From Gammaproteobacteria bacterium (lineage in GTDB: Bacteria; Pseudomonadota; Gammaproteobacteria; Nitrosococcales; Methylophagaceae), in assembly GCA_029248745.1 (NCBI GenBank), contig JAQWIT010000003.1:186001-250000 (forward strand): 64,000 nucleotides of DNA, written 5' to 3'. Positions 2,943 through 38,046 of this stretch are shown here, piece after piece; position 1 is the first letter of the stretch; every line of letters begins with the position of its first letter. The notes beneath the pieces are model-generated. The model searched no databases and was not told the origin of the DNA. It saw nothing but the letters and a program-made list of their open reading frames with translations. The position numbers and the translations under genes are program-made.

Positions 2943-3989
2943 TTACTCTTCACGGCCTAATAAGGCATCAACAAATTCCGTTCCATCAAAGGGACGGAGA
3001 TCATCAATGGCTTCACCAACGCCAATGTAGCGAATCGGCAGCCCGAGTTTTTTAGCAAGCGCAAAAATAATACCACCCTTAGCAGTACCATCGAGTTTGG
3101 TTAGCGTGATACCTGAGACATCAACGATTTGTTGAAATTGTGTGGCTTGATTCAAAGCATTTTGGCCTGTGCCAGCATCAAGTACGAGCATCACTTCATG
3201 TGGTGCATTGATATCAAGTTTACCCATAACCCTTTTTACTTTTCTCAATTCTTCCATCAAGTTATCTTGGGTATGTAAACGGCCTGCAGTGTCGGCGATA
3301 AGGATATCTACATTCCGCGCTTTGGCAGCTTGCAGACCATCAAAAATTACAGACGCAGAATCAGCACCACTCTGTTGAGCAATGACCGGAATATCATTAC
3401 GCTTCCCCCAAACCTGCAATTGCTCTACGGCAGCAGCACGGAAAGTGTCTCCTGCGGCCAACATGACACTTTTGCCTTCATTTTGGAATTGTTTCGCTAA
3501 CTTACCAATGGTGGTGGTTTTACCCACGCCATTAATGCCCACCATCAAAATAACAAACGGCATATCTTGTTGTGGAATAACCAGTGGCTTTTGACTCGGT
3601 GCTAATAATGCCACCATATCATCACGCAATGCTTCGAATAACATGTCACTGTCATTGAGTTGGTTACGTGCAAGGCGTTGCGTTAGGTTATCGATCAGTG
3701 TTTGGGTCGCATCAATGCCCAAATCAGCACTCAATAACTGGGTTTCAAGTTCTTCTAATAAATCATCATCAATGGTTTTTTTGCCTAAAATTAAAGACGA
3801 AAAACCACTGGTTAATTTAGAGCTACTTCTGCTTAGCCGTTGCTTTAATCGGCCAAACAGACTATTTTTCTCATCAGCAGACGCGTTAATCGTAGCATCC
3901 TGAGAGGATGGTTCTAAATCATTAGACGAGACGTCATCAGCAGATGATTTATCGGCTTGTTTGTCTTTTTTTCTTAGGAAACTAAACAT
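2943..3989 (-). CDS. ftsY: Signal recognition particle receptor FtsY
   Basis: FtsY is the SRP receptor GTPase that docks ribosome-nascent-chain/SRP complexes at the inner membrane. The 348 residues comprise a short charged A domain (1-45, rich in Lys, Asp and Ser, and shorter than the E. coli one), the N helical bundle (about 50-130) and the G domain. The G domain carries G1 GINGVGKTTT (151-160), the DTAGR motif at about 230 and TKLDGTAKGG near 298. It is the first gene of the minus-strand ftsYEX cluster and starts only 57 bases from the divergent peptidase gene. Its promoter must therefore lie in, or overlap, that short gap. Confidence 0.97.
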   Translation of the reverse strand: MFSFLRKKDKQADKSSADDVSSNDLEPSSQDATINASADEKNSLFGRLKQRLSRSSSKLTSGFSSLILGKKTIDDDLLEELETQLLSADLGIDATQTLIDNLTQRLARNQLNDSDMLFEALRDDMVALLAPSQKPLVIPQQDMPFVILMVGINGVGKTTTIGKLAKQFQNEGKSVMLAAGDTFRAAAVEQLQVWGKRNDIPVIAQQSGADSASVIFDGLQAAKARNVDILIADTAGRLHTQDNLMEELRKVKRVMGKLDINAPHEVMLVLDAGTGQNALNQATQFQQIVDVSGITLTKLDGTAKGGIIFALAKKLGLPIRYIGVGEAIDDLRPFDGTEFVDALLGREE

Positions 3990-4046: not shown

Positions 4047-5420
4047 ATGCAGATGCTTAAAAAAATAACGTTAGCGTGCGGCTTGCTCATCACATTGCCA
4101 AGCCTTGTGTTAGCAGATGTTAAAGAATATCAATTTGATAATGGCCTAAAACTGATTGTTAAACCGGATCACCGCGCACCCGTTGCGGTGACTCAGGTTT
4201 GGTATAAAGTCGGTTCAAGTTACGAGTATAACGGGATTACCGGGATCTCACATCAACTCGAACATATGATGTTCAAAGGCACTGAAAATCTTGGGCCAAA
4301 TGAGTTTTCCAAAATTATCGCGGCGAATGGCGGACGTGAAAATGCGTTTACAGGTCGTGATTACACCGCTTATTTTCAAACCATGGAAGCCGATAGAGTT
4401 GAAGTCAGTTTTCGTCTCGAAGCCGAGCGCATGCGTAAATTGGTACTTGATGAAGCCGAATTATTAAAAGAGCGTGAAGTGGTAGCTGAAGAAAGACGCT
4501 TACGGACAGAAGATAGCCCGACCGCAATGACACGCGAGACATTTAATGCAACGGCATTTATGAACAGTCCATATCACCACCCTATTGTGGGCTGGATGAG
4601 TGATATTAACAATTATGAAGTTGATGATTTAGAGCAGTGGTATCAAAAATGGTATGCGCCTAATAACGCAACGATTGTGGTGGCAGGAGATGTTGAACCT
4701 GAAGCAATCTATAAATTAGCACAGCAATTCTTTGGACACCTTAAACCTGAAGAGGTTGAAGTGGTAAAACCACAAGTGGAAGTACCTCAACGTGGTAAAC
4801 GAACAGTCGAAGTGCAGTTACCCGCTGAATTACCCTATCTGATGATGGGATGGAAAGTCCCCGTCGTTAAAACGGCTAAAAAAGCGTGGGAACCCTATGC
4901 ATTAGAAGTGTTAGCGGGTGTGTTAGATGGCGGGGATAGCGCACGATTTACCCGCGATTTAGTGCGTGGCGATGAAATAGCCACCAGCGTGGGTGTGGGC
5001 TATAACGCTTTTTCACGGCTTGATGATCTATTCCTTGTCGCGGGTGCACCGACCAAAGCACGTGATGTAGCGGCTTTGCAGCAAGCAGTTATTAAACAGA
5101 TTGAACAACTACAAGCAGAACCTGTGACTGAGCAAGAATTACAACGCATCAAAACACAAGTCGTTGCTGGGGCTGTGTATGAAAGAGATAGCCTCTTTTA
5201 TCAAGCGATGCAGATTGGCATGCTTGAGACCATAGGTTTGGATTGGCGCTTAAGCGACCAATATGTTGAGAATATTCAGGCGGTAACAGCAGAGCAAATA
5301 CAGGCTGTGGCCAATAAGTATTTTGTAGACACAACGCTGACAGTGGCAGAACTAGTACCGCTACCGTTAGACCAGAAATCACGTAATAGAGGCATCATAG
5401 GAGGCAGACATGGCCAATAG
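4047..5420 (+). CDS. M16 zinc peptidase, catalytic partner
   Basis: This is a periplasmic or envelope M16-family (pitrilysin/processing-peptidase-like) metalloprotease of 457 residues. An N-terminal signal peptide with cleavage near LVLA-DV is visible at about 1-24. The inverted zinc motif HxxEH is HQLEH at 69-73, and the third zinc ligand is Glu149 in the AEERR context, with the spacing expected for M16. It overlaps the next gene, a related protein without the zinc motif, by 11 bases. The two probably form a catalytic/non-catalytic heterodimer, as in known bacterial M16B pairs. A start two codons downstream (MLKK) is equally possible. The physiological substrate is unknown. Confidence 0.9.
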   Translation: MQMLKKITLACGLLITLPSLVLADVKEYQFDNGLKLIVKPDHRAPVAVTQVWYKVGSSYEYNGITGISHQLEHMMFKGTENLGPNEFSKIIAANGGRENAFTGRDYTAYFQTMEADRVEVSFRLEAERMRKLVLDEAELLKEREVVAEERRLRTEDSPTAMTRETFNATAFMNSPYHHPIVGWMSDINNYEVDDLEQWYQKWYAPNNATIVVAGDVEPEAIYKLAQQFFGHLKPEEVEVVKPQVEVPQRGKRTVEVQLPAELPYLMMGWKVPVVKTAKKAWEPYALEVLAGVLDGGDSARFTRDLVRGDEIATSVGVGYNAFSRLDDLFLVAGAPTKARDVAALQQAVIKQIEQLQAEPVTEQELQRIKTQVVAGAVYERDSLFYQAMQIGMLETIGLDWRLSDQYVENIQAVTAEQIQAVANKYFVDTTLTVAELVPLPLDQKSRNRGIIGGRHGQ

Positions 5421-6697
5421 AATTATCCTTGGCTTAGTAGGGCTCTTTTTGACCTTAACTGCTTATGCAGGGCCACAAATTGAACAATGGAAAACCGAAA
5501 AAGGCGCACGTGTTTACTATGTGTCAGCGCCTGAATTACCGATGATCGACGTTAAAATTGTCTTTGATGCGGGTTCAGCACAGGATAAAGATCTACCTGG
5601 TACAGCCTTACTGACCAACGCGATGTTAGCAGAGGGTGCTGGCGGGCAAACAGCGGATCAGATTTCAGCAGCATTCGAAGATGTCGGTGCCAATTTTGGT
5701 AATGCCTCTCAGCGAGATATGGCGACATTGAGTTTGCGTAGCTTAACGGCTGAACCTGCGCTATCAAACGCATTGAATGCCCTCAATCTAGTATTGACGC
5801 AACCTGAGTTCCCTCAAGCGGCATTTGAACGCTTGCAAAAGCAAGTTCTTCTTGGACTACAGGCAGAGAATCAGTCGCCTCGTGCACTAAGTGTTCGGGC
5901 ATTCTATGCCAACGTTTTTGGTGAGCATCCTTATGCCAATATGCCGATTGGTCAGGCCGAAGTGGTTGAGCAACTAAACGTTAAGACGTTGAAAAAGTTT
6001 TATCAGCAATACTATGTCGCTCGCAATGCAACGGTAGTAATCGTTGGCGCAATTGATAAAGCGCAAGCAAAATCCATTACAGAGCAGTTAATGGCAGATT
6101 TGCCAGAAGGTGAGATAGCCGATCCATTGAATCAAGTATCCGCTCTAACCGAAGCCAAACAGATACAGATAGAACATCCTTCCCAACAAACGCATATTTT
6201 AATGGGCCAGCCGGGTATAAGCCGAGGTGACCCAGATTATTTCCCGCTCTATGTGGGTAATCATATTCTTGGTGGTAGTGGTTTAGTATCACAGCTTAGT
6301 AATGAGGTACGTGAGAAACGGGGATTATCGTATAGTACCTATAGTTATTTCAGACCGATGCACCAACAAGGACCTTATCAATTTGGTCTACAAACCAGAA
6401 ATGACCAAACAAAAGAAGCTTTAGAAGTGATGCAAGCTACCTTAAGGGCCTTCATTGTTAATGGCCCGACCAGTGAAGAACTAACAGCCGCGAAACAAAA
6501 TATTACCGGTGGCTTTGCTTTGCGTATCGATAGCAATAGCAAAATTGCTGATTATTTGGCGATGATCGGCTTTTACGGTTTACCACTTACTTATCTCGAT
6601 ACCTTTAAAGACAAGGTGATGGCAGTGACAGCCGTTGATATAAAGTCAGCTTACGAACATCGCGTTCATCCCGATAAGATGGTCACGATCATGGTCG

Positions 6698-35634: not shown

Positions 35635-35711
<77 letters not shown>

Positions 35712-35723
35712 AGATATTAAAAA

Positions 35724-35758
35724 GCCTATATAAATTAACAGTTTATATAGGCCTTTTT
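35724..35758 (+). terminator. Terminator of the tRNA-fMet gene
   Basis: GCCTATATAAA pairs perfectly with TTTATATAGGC over a 7-base loop, followed by CTTTTT. It lies 12 bases after the tRNA. Confidence 0.9.
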
Positions 35759-35835
35759 GCGTTTAGGGATAAAGATTTCTATGGCGACTATTTCTCAAGC
35801 CTATTTTTTAGAAATAGGTAGATAAGCAATGCATT

Positions 35836-35863
35836 AAGAGGGACGCAAACAGCTGCGCCCCTT
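35836..35863 (-). terminator. Possible terminator of the ArsR-metallothionein unit
   Basis: On the minus strand GGGGCGCA can pair with TGCGTCCC (one G-T pair) over a 6-base loop, followed by a short TCTT. The stem is good but the T tract is weak. It lies about 25 bases past the small peptide gene. Confidence 0.5.
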
Positions 35864-35890
35864 AAAAGTTTAGTTTAAAGCACATCCTTG

Positions 35891-35983
35891 CTAACAACAG
35901 CACTTACTGTTACAACATTTACACGTTTTATCTTGGCAGCATTTAGAATTTTTACAGTCACATTTACATTTTTGTGTCGTCAT
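35891..35983 (-). CDS. 30-residue cysteine-rich metallothionein-like peptide
   Basis: This is a tiny gene of 30 codons. The product starts MTTQKCKCDCKN and ends NSKCCC. It has 11 cysteines (6, 8, 10, 15, 16, 21, 23, 24, 28, 29, 30) with lysine, serine and aspartate between them and no hydrophobic or aromatic residues. The CxCxC, CC, CxCC and CCC spacing is typical of metal-thiolate cluster peptides. A GGAGAG ribosome binding site lies about 8 bases before the ATG. The start is 27 bases downstream of an ArsR/SmtB-type repressor on the same strand, so it is probably its target. It is shorter than SmtA-type bacterial metallothioneins (about 55 residues). A cytosolic metal buffer for Cu(I), Zn, Cd or As is the likely role; the metal is unknown. 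Confidence 0.8.
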   Translation of the reverse strand: MTTQKCKCDCKNSKCCQDKTCKCCNSKCCC

Positions 35984-36010
35984 ATTAGCTCTCCAATGGT
36001 TAGTAATGAG

Positions 36011-36310
36011 TTAAAGGCTTGTTTCAATTTTAGTGGCTAACGCTCTGAGTTGATTTACAACATTAGCCCTATCTAGGCTGTAAGTCCTTTCTCGACCTTT
36101 TTTATCCAACTTCAAAATGCCTGCCTGAGCGAGCGTTTTTAGGTGCCTAGATACGACTGAAGCATCGACACTACAACAGTCGCATAAACACATAGCATTC
36201 TGTGGTTGCGGACATTCACATAGCCTGTAAACCAAAGAGAGTCGATTAAACTCGCCAAGTGCTTTAAGAAGATCTGCTGTGTCTTGTATCTCTGTTTGCT
36301 TCATAACCAT
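36011..36310 (-). CDS. ArsR/SmtB-family metal-responsive repressor
   Basis: This is a winged-helix repressor of 99 residues; a start at the second ATG (36304) gives 97. The DNA-recognition helix is visible (CSVDASVVSRHLKTLAQAGIL), followed by the wing (LDKKGRERTYSL). A dense cysteine set precedes and enters the recognition region: CEC near residue 31, then CLCDCC around 41-46. This extends the CVC-type metal site of CadC/ArsR proteins. Soft-metal sensing (As, Cd, Pb, Cu) is likely. It is the first gene of a two-gene unit with the metallothionein-like peptide, and an operator lies directly upstream. Confidence 0.88.
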   Translation of the reverse strand: MVMKQTEIQDTADLLKALGEFNRLSLVYRLCECPQPQNAMCLCDCCSVDASVVSRHLKTLAQAGILKLDKKGRERTYSLDRANVVNQLRALATKIETSL

Positions 36311-36339
36311 ATATTTGCATTATTGCGCAAATATGTCAA
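36311..36339 (-). promoter_or_regulatory. Operator-promoter of the ArsR-metallothionein unit
   Basis: ATATTTGC (36311-36318) and GCAAATAT (36327-36334) form an inverted repeat around 8 bases. On the minus strand a perfect -35 TTGACA (36334-36339) is followed after 17 bases by AAATAT as -10 (36311-36316). The repeat fills the spacer, the usual place for ArsR/SmtB repressor sites. Transcription would start close to the repressor start codon. Confidence 0.7.
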
Positions 36340-36400
36340 AAGCAGGGAAATCTTAGCTTAAGTTAATAAGGAATAGAGGGAAATAAAGAATAAAGAGAGA

Positions 36401-36435
36401 AGTAAAACAAAAAGGGCAGTCATATAAGACTGCCC
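36401..36435 (-). terminator. Terminator of the lipoprotein gene
   Basis: GGGCAGTC pairs with GACTGCCC over a 6-base loop (36414-36435). On the minus strand a T-rich tract follows. It lies 33 bases after the lipoprotein stop codon. Confidence 0.88.
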
Positions 36436-36467
36436 CATGTGCTAAGTAATACAAGTTTGTATTGGAA

Positions 36468-37274
36468 TTACATGCCCAAAGCTAGTAGCTCTACTCTAGC
36501 AGCGGTGCCGTATATTTCGTCAGCAGTGGTATCCAACGTTGCTGGTGGAATGAGTGACGGCCATAGAGGCATAATGTTTTCGATTAGGGCATCTGCCTTT
36601 GACTTTATTTCACTATCATCTAATTGCGAAATAACGACACGGGCAGTTTTGGTAAAGCCTAATGCATCTTGATATTCATGGGCATTTTCCATTTTGCCTT
36701 CAACCACGGCGATAGCATATTCTTCACCAGCAACACGTAGTAAATCGGCGGCGAGTTTTAATCTTTCTGCTGCTGATTGTGTTTGTTCACTGACCGCCTG
36801 CTCGTTTAGAGTGATAGCTGAGATTAAGTGTTGGTAAGCTTGATCAACGGCTTCATGGCCTTGATCTTGATTAACGGCATTGGCCAATCCGGCAAGTTCA
36901 TCTGCAAAGCCAGCAGTACCGCGTGCTTCGAAAGCAGGAATCATTGTGGCATAAAGCTCACTTTCTGGATGTTTCATATGCGTTTTGGCATGTTCGAGTT
37001 GACCATCCATGTAGAGTTGATGGCCCACATAGAGGTGACCGCGCACTAAACCCAGTTGTGCAAGATAGGGTCGATCATCCGTCGCTAAATTAACTTCCTT
37101 TGCGCTACCTTCTCCCTCTCCTTCACCCTCGCCAGAGTGAGCCGAACTGGTCGCATGCACCGCAGTAGGATTAGCCACATGATCTGGATCATTGTCTGGG
37201 TTACAGCCGGTCATTGTTGAGCTTGCCAGTGTGGCAGCCCCTATGCTTAGCCAAAGTTTGTTGCGCTTGTACAT
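36468..37274 (-). CDS. Putative iron-linked lipoprotein with GEG repeat linker
   Basis: I do not recognise an assigned function. The 268-residue protein has a basic start and a signal sequence ending STMTGC (cysteine 24), a slightly unusual lipobox. A low-complexity linker follows, containing GEGEGEGEG (48-56). The mature domain is helical and rich in His, Glu and Ala. It opens with GLVRGHLYVGHQLYMDGQ and HAKTHMKHPESELY, whose spaced histidines and acidic residues could bind metal. A GGAG site precedes the ATG. It is divergent from a PiuC-type hydroxylase across a 109-base gap with a Fur-like box. This suggests expression under iron limitation, but it is inference from position. Confidence 0.7.
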   Translation of the reverse strand: MYKRNKLWLSIGAATLASSTMTGCNPDNDPDHVANPTAVHATSSAHSGEGEGEGEGSAKEVNLATDDRPYLAQLGLVRGHLYVGHQLYMDGQLEHAKTHMKHPESELYATMIPAFEARGTAGFADELAGLANAVNQDQGHEAVDQAYQHLISAITLNEQAVSEQTQSAAERLKLAADLLRVAGEEYAIAVVEGKMENAHEYQDALGFTKTARVVISQLDDSEIKSKADALIENIMPLWPSLIPPATLDTTADEIYGTAARVELLALGM

Positions 37275-37356: not shown

Positions 37357-37376
37357 CTTAATAATCATTCTCATTT
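37357..37376. promoter_or_regulatory. Fur-box-like sequence
   Basis: AATAATCATTCTCATTT matches the AT-rich core of the Fur consensus (AATCATTxTC arm well conserved, the other arm weaker). It lies 8 bases before the hydroxylase ATG and about 83 bases from the divergent lipoprotein start. It could control one or both genes. Confidence 0.6.
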
Positions 37377-37383
37377 AAGAATT

Positions 37384-38046
37384 ATGGCAATTTTCATTGA
37401 AAACGTGTTGGATGTCTACAGTCAAGGCGCGATAAATGCCGTTTTGACGGATCTAGATCATTTCATAGACGGTAAAAAAACAGCTGGTAGAAGCGCGCAA
37501 CAAGTTAAAAATAATCTGCAAGCAGACAAAAACTGCTCAGAAATTAAGGGTGCAACTAAATTAATAGAACAAGCTTTATTGTCTCATCCTGATTTTATTA
37601 ATGCGGCGCAGCCACAGAAACTCGCTAAAGTAATGTTAAGTCGCTATGAAGAGGGAATGGAATATGGGCCACATATTGATGATGCCGTAATTGAGGACAC
37701 ACGAACCGATTTATCGTTTACTTTATTTTTATCTGATCCTGACAGTTACCAAGGGGGAGAGTTGGTCATTCAGCAACCAGACGGTGCAGAAAGTATAAAA
37801 TTAGCCAAAGGTTCGGTGTATGTATATCCGACCAAATACGTACACTATGTTGCTCCTGTGACGGAAGGTGTTCGCTTTGCTGCCATTGGCTGGGTTCAAA
37901 GCCATGTTCGTTTGGAAGAACATCGTCAAATCCTATTAAACGTGGCGGTTTTGCTAAAACAATTACCCGATGTCACTGAAAACAGAGCTATACGTTTGCA
38001 ATTACTGCAGATACAGAGTCAACTGCAGCGTCTTTGGTATGATTGA
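37384..38046 (+). CDS. PiuC/YbiX-type Fe(II)/2-oxoglutarate hydroxylase
   Basis: This is a 220-residue PKHD-type dioxygenase. The iron ligands are His97 and Asp99 (YGPHIDD) and a distal histidine at 154 (YVHYVAP). Arg164 is positioned to hold 2-oxoglutarate. PiuC/YbiX homologues accompany TonB-dependent siderophore receptors and are Fur-regulated; the substrate is unknown. No receptor gene adjoins here. The partner gene is the divergent lipoprotein. The Fur-like box just upstream fits iron-starvation control. Confidence 0.9.
   Translation: MAIFIENVLDVYSQGAINAVLTDLDHFIDGKKTAGRSAQQVKNNLQADKNCSEIKGATKLIEQALLSHPDFINAAQPQKLAKVMLSRYEEGMEYGPHIDDAVIEDTRTDLSFTLFLSDPDSYQGGELVIQQPDGAESIKLAKGSVYVYPTKYVHYVAPVTEGVRFAAIGWVQSHVRLEEHRQILLNVAVLLKQLPDVTENRAIRLQLLQIQSQLQRLWYD

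Follow-up and report, generated by a model that had tools for sequence, protein, structure and literature searches.

The arsR–peptide gene pair and its relatives

The window, meaning the whole 64-kb stretch of DNA analysed, carries on its minus strand an arsR gene followed by a gene for a short Cys-rich peptide, with the following features from the promoter onwards.

36334..36339, minus strand: -35 hexamer TTGACA, recognised by its sequence ahead of the operator
36311..36334, minus strand: operator ATATTTGCGCAATAATGCAAATAT, an imperfect palindrome overlapping the promoter, conserved upstream of 42/42 arsR genes
36311..36316, minus strand: proposed -10 hexamer AAATAT, conserved in position, 17 nt from the -35 hexamer and 6 nt before the arsR ATG
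36011..36304, minus strand: arsR gene, 97 aa; an alternative upstream ATG at 36310 gives 99 aa (ORF 36011-36310)
35989..35994, minus strand: Shine-Dalgarno sequence GGAGAG of the peptide gene, recognised by sequence, 5 nt ahead of the ATG
35891..35983, minus strand: Cys11 peptide gene, metallothionein-like, 30 aa, ATG start, 41 homologues aligned

Conserved starts in relatives and the position of the promoter indicate that the second ATG (36304) is the real start of arsR. The 93-nt peptide ORF starts 27 nt downstream of the arsR end and translates as MTTQKCKCDCKNSKCCQDKTCKCCNSKCCC, with 11 Cys among its 30 residues (37%). An earlier interpretation made from the letters alone (the sequence-only reading) had described this ORF, its good ribosome binding site and the 27-base gap correctly in every detail. 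Elsewhere within the 64-kb window no similar Cys-rich ORF was detected, and no Pfam or NCBIfam model, metallothionein models included, matched the peptide in the 41 members searched. A PDB profile search of the peptide returned weak matches to disulfide-rich peptides alone (E above 1), which were discarded.

Approximately 85,000 species genomes were scanned with a DNA pattern encoding the ArsR signature CxCxCCxx[D/N]x4[S]RHLxxL alone, yielding 43 stretches, of which 41 were true relatives and two (L059 and L077) were chance matches to the pattern and were dropped. The related ArsRs were 60–78% identical to that of the window (40 aligned), and a Cys-rich peptide of 29–45 residues was encoded directly downstream of arsR in all 41. 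Because the ArsR-only pattern ignored the peptide, this co-occurrence represents an independent test, passed without exception. A peptide-profile search of the 41 relatives' genomes gave one match per genome, always at arsR.

The operator consensus ATATTTGCrCAAATATGCAAATAT was found upstream of 42/42 arsR genes with at most 8 mismatches of 24, compared to 0.24% of shuffles, a comparison that somewhat favours the scored sequences, which come from distant phyla, since the consensus was built from them. The operator spans the -35 to -10 interval and ends 5–8 nt before the arsR start in 34/42 loci. No second operator within 3 mismatches was found in the window's own genome, and the regulon is therefore probably just the arsR–peptide unit. 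The arsR promoter was not listed by a sigma-70 consensus scan, consistent with AAATAT being a weak -10. A Shine-Dalgarno core preceded 39/42 peptide genes compared with 1/42 arsR genes, and the short distance from operator to ATG suggests that the arsR transcript is leaderless. A leaderless arsR would accord with the rarity of its Shine-Dalgarno core, such that little repressor and much peptide may be made.

Across the window and its relatives, the exact CxCxC-x4-CC-x4-CxCC-x3-CCC spacing was kept in 32 of the 42 peptides, and the Cys count was exactly 11 in 40 and 10 in two (L042 and L061). In L046 and L076 a canonical Cys is lost and an extra one near the N-terminus restores the total of 11. 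It thus seems to be the number of thiolates in the peptide that is constrained, as would be expected if a cluster of set stoichiometry forms. Both TGT and TGC were freely used at the invariant C-terminal Cys columns, and dN/dS was approximately 0.12–0.44 for close pairs within one gammaproteobacterial group, each value being noisy over 30 codons; judged from these codon comparisons, selection on the peptide is purifying. The sequence-only reading had put forward an ArsR-controlled micro-metallothionein, to be checked by homologous frames beside orthologous ArsR genes, by premature stops, by dN/dS and by the spacing of the two genes. Its proposal gains support at the sequence level from the homologous frames at 41/41 loci, none with a premature stop, and from dN/dS values well below 1; the spacing was not conserved, ranging from -26 to +56 nt with overlap in 20/42. 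A peptide of 30 residues is below usual gene-calling lengths, and the lack of any matching family model would also be expected were the ORF spurious and ArsR autoregulating alone. We give that explanation almost no chance: 41/41 co-occurrence, 11 Cys in 40/42 and purifying selection argue that the ORF did not arise by chance, and with synonymous change of Cys codons and a Shine-Dalgarno core in 39/42 the spurious reading is already refuted on sequence grounds.

Distribution and acquisition of the cassette

Relatives were detected in at least seven phyla (Pseudomonadota, Myxococcota, Bdellovibrionota, Planctomycetota, Calditrichota, Nitrospinota and Candidatus Hydrogenedentota). The carriers are approximately 40 scattered bacteria, mostly marine, and most of the relatives' genomes are MAGs. 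Closer to the window, the peptide had no relative in 56 other genomes sampled from the window's taxonomic family, 28 of which are congeners, a separate search of 59 relatives returned no close ArsR relative, and among 369 class and 398 phylum genomes sampled, the own genome alone matched at E 0.001. The earlier suggestion that relatives may be widely missed holds in that they extend across many phyla; it falls short in that the cassette is rare, with no E 0.001 match in ~765 other class and phylum genome scans. For the sole cyanobacterial case, L053 (Cf. Phormidesmis sp. LEGE 11477), the contig may be a contaminant, as its coverage is low and the sister of this ArsR belongs to a Hydrogenovibrio MAG.

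Several weaker candidates were rejected. A congener peptide match (L041) fell by chance inside a histidine kinase gene, and one in G363 (E 0.009) fell in a region without a matching small ORF and was left uncounted. Against plasmids, tblastn of the peptide gave no match, and ArsR retrieved only Gram-positive CadC-like proteins of ~35% identity. The ArsRs of class relatives were generic, at most 43% identical and without the peptide. In viral contigs the ArsR pattern matched short chance frames, and TGY-repeat low-complexity frames were among the matches listed for the peptide pattern. One class relative's ArsR (L003:435-758) is extended in frame at its C-terminus by a tail that ends in Cys-rich sequence (...MTEHCCQGGACEVTESSCASC).

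The surroundings of the pair in the window delimit the acquired segment as follows.

35753..36412, no strand: approximate extent of the acquired cassette, between two terminators
35724-35752, strand not given: tRNA-Met terminator, from a terminator scan
36413-36436, strand not given: terminator of the next gene, from a terminator scan
35635-35711, strand not given: tRNA-Met, directly adjoining the acquired cassette

In the congener G012 (locus L089), which has the same NtrC, tRNA-Met and next gene, ~230 bp of unrelated sequence stands against ~770 bp in the window. This locus is an empty site and a direct sign of cassette mobility. In the ArsR tree, well-supported branches bring together members of different phyla, such as Calditrichota and Planctomycetota, a mixing that MAG binning errors may inflate. 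Beyond the cassette, the window holds a divergent gene pair (36468-37274 and 37384-38046), one member encoding a lipoprotein-like product that contains a run of GEGEGEGEG and the other what we take to be a putative PKHD-type (PiuC-like) oxygenase; between them, aataatcattctcatt (37360-37375) resembles a Fur box and is a candidate for one.

Sensor segment, neighbouring genes and the probable metal

Membership of the window ArsR in the ArsR/SmtB family was indicated by Pfam HTH_5 (23.6 bits, cut-off 22), its NF033788 score (53.5 bits) being just under the cut-off of 55, and profile searches matched CadC, CzrA, SmtB and NmtR. The CEC and CLCDCC clusters pointed out beforehand are present, with Cys29, 39, 41, 43 and 44 found in 42/42 members and Cys31 in 40/42. 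No conserved His of the SmtB/CzrA-type alpha5 zinc sensor occurs in the C-terminal helix of the 42 members, and of the CadC-type alpha3N site the CxC (Cys39, 41) is present but the N-terminal Cys pair is not, no Cys occurring ahead of residue 29. Lacking both the alpha5 His site and the N-terminal Cys pair, this ArsR falls within ArsR/SmtB and outside the SmtB and CadC sensor types. The CxCxxC of E. coli-type As(III) ArsRs (Cys39, 41, 44) is found in 42/42, yet despite this spacing we would not class the protein as an As(III) sensor on its sequence. In an alignment to CadC, the surroundings of alpha3 show an insertion of four residues and a deletion of three. An AlphaFold model of ArsR (pLDDT 83, and 65–72 over the Cys segment; TM only ~0.4–0.55 when superposed on solved ArsRs, a poor fit) has no helix at residues 29–47, with low confidence there, a hint that this segment may be non-helical without metal. 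The metalloid-binding region of another ArsR undergoes an As(III)-induced disorder-to-order change (PMC11212059), which shows that a segment of this kind can serve as a switch.

Among 111 neighbouring proteins, cobW was the most frequent Pfam family (n = 7) and the zinc metallochaperone ZigA the most frequent NCBIfam model. Seven of the 41 genomes (L045, L049, L060, L066, L073, L075 and L081) had a COG0523 (CobW_C) gene no more than 3 kb from the peptide, compared to 0.07 expected (P ~6e-13), based on 44 COG0523 genes in 154 Mb and counted by genome; counted on four independent tree branches alone (at least four present), the enrichment gave P ~8e-7. Two neighbouring COG0523 proteins exceeded the ZigA NCBIfam cut-off and a third was incomplete as read, and those of L049 and L075 scored better as other COG0523 types. 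Neighbours in L060 included a FUR-family gene (3240-3680) and phosphoribosyl-AMP cyclohydrolase (HisI), and those in L078 a FUR-family gene (5094-5471), a short CobW and MerC. Both FUR-family genes are possibly Zur, with no NCBIfam model above E 1e-30 assigning them. Two loci have a threonyl-tRNA synthetase gene, which may be thrS2, the paralogue of Zur type; at one (L058:2598-4595) it is convergent with the peptide gene and at most ~30 nt away, and at the other (L063:3380-5299) it is adjacent to it. Known members of the Zur regulon include COG0523, hisI2 and thrS2 (PMC6103462). Zinc is thus favoured for the cassette by the COG0523/ZigA enrichment and the FUR-family, HisI and thrS neighbours, neighbours of zinc type being present at a minority of loci and none in the window itself, and the cassette would most likely handle excess zinc or similar soft metals.

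Some properties stand against an autoregulated zinc-buffering cassette, namely the Cys39-x-Cys41-x2-Cys44 spacing of E. coli-type As(III) sensors, an ArsR without His for the alpha5 zinc site and the weak predicted -10. The two genes could instead form a soft-metal detoxification pair, with Cu(I), As(III) or Hg(II)/Cd(II) in place of zinc as signal and cargo. Such a pair would fit a sensor whose ligands are thiolate only and spaced as in E. coli ArsR, the Cd/Pb sensor CadC as the best-annotated solved relative, the lack of His in 38/42 peptides, unlike cyanobacterial zinc metallothioneins, and a MerC-family gene nearby at three loci. However, no arsenic or copper gene family is among the most frequent families of the 111 neighbours, which CobW/COG0523 leads with ZigA as top model, and an arsenic/copper operon was rejected for this reason; with the seven COG0523 genomes observed against 0.07 expected, we regard a cargo other than zinc as unlikely.

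Sensors of the BigR, SqrR and RexT type use two or three Cys at other positions. Some ArsR proteins do use Cys to sense persulfide or peroxide, and BigR, SqrR and RexT were also returned by the profile and fold searches, so that the peptide might be conceived as a redox or sulfane-sulfur buffer under a thiol-redox sensor. The six clustered ArsR Cys are nearly invariant, however, the peptide Cys are held at 11 and the neighbours are metal genes, which leaves a redox role very improbable.

Proposed operation and relation to known systems

Taken together, arsR and the peptide gene quite probably constitute a two-gene autoregulated metal-buffering cassette, a metallothionein under the control of ArsR. 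An ArsR dimer bound to the promoter-overlapping palindrome would block arsR and the downstream peptide gene. Thiophilic metal in excess (most likely Zn(II); Cd(II) is a probable non-physiological inducer) would bind the Cys29–Cys44 segment, predicted to occupy the usual place of helix alpha3 of the helix-turn-helix, and the DNA would be released. Transcription would begin on the start codon of arsR or immediately beside it, giving leaderless, low-yield translation of the repressor, and the peptide would be translated from its strong ribosome-binding site. The peptide would then fold around a metal–thiolate cluster of its 11 Cys and buffer the metal, with four divalent ions per peptide predicted by count in the mammalian alpha domain, until free metal falls and the repressor shuts the unit down.

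SmtB–SmtA (Synechococcus) and AzuR–NmtA (Anabaena; PMC8790569) are known pairs of ArsR/SmtB repressor and metallothionein. Together with BxmR–BmtA, these systems have in common with the cassette both this pairing of genes and a promoter-overlapping palindrome, and zinc-responsive logic of the SmtB–SmtA type is likely the one in the cassette too. In contrast to SmtB–SmtA, the cassette genes are co-directional as an operon and the repressor lacks SmtB's alpha5 His site. SmtA-type peptides have ~55 aa, use His ligands and fold like a zinc finger (PMC10612145), whereas the cassette peptide has ~30 aa, is nearly free of His and aromatics, and has neither a match to the SmtA/bacterial metallothionein models nor the features of a His-containing zinc-finger fold. 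The 42 peptides are nonetheless small and Cys-rich (35% Cys) with few or no aromatics (Phe and Trp absent, Tyr in two), as metallothioneins in general are.

CadC was among the best profile matches of the cassette ArsR and its top fold match, and with CadC and E. coli-type ArsR it has in common a winged helix and a CxC metal motif in the helix-turn-helix. It differs from CadC in its ~32% identity, the lack of an N-terminal Cys pair, a remodelled alpha2–alpha3 region and six clustered Cys, and from CadC and E. coli-type ArsR loci in that the cassette has no pump or arsenic genes.

The mammalian metallothionein alpha domain is Zn4Cys11 (PMC10243857). As in that domain, with its 11 Cys in ~31 residues, the cassette peptide contains little beyond Cys other than Lys, Ser and acidic residues, and 40/42 members match the count of 11 Cys exactly over ~30 residues. 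The order of Cys is different and the cassette peptide is free-standing rather than a domain, and we would treat the match as an analogy, with no homology claimed. Mycobacterial MymT and the 25-residue copper metallothioneins of fungi are also very short Cys-rich metal-binding peptides; their spacing and regulation are other than those of the cassette peptide, and the fungal peptides have fewer Cys.

Searches of family libraries and of open-access papers yielded no description of the peptide family, of this ArsR subfamily or of the operon layout. The cassette is apparently undescribed, the underlying repressor–metallothionein principle being already known. We lean towards a fuller account in which undescribed free-standing Cys11 metallothioneins, each with a repressor of a dedicated ArsR subfamily whose six-Cys segment replaces alpha3, are carried on a horizontally spreading, zinc-tied cassette of ~half a kb in at least seven phyla, with a leaderless repressor and a strong peptide start. 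If true, this would add a second architecture to repressor–metallothionein pairs, so far mainly cyanobacterial, and would provide a natural minimal Cys11 peptide in which cluster chemistry is directly testable. It would also represent a metal buffer that is too short for standard gene calling, yet identifiable via its regulator. Halioglobus pacificus KCTC 23430 and Alteromonas sp. 5E99-2 appear to be carriers in culture, and the function of the cassette is therefore open to direct testing.
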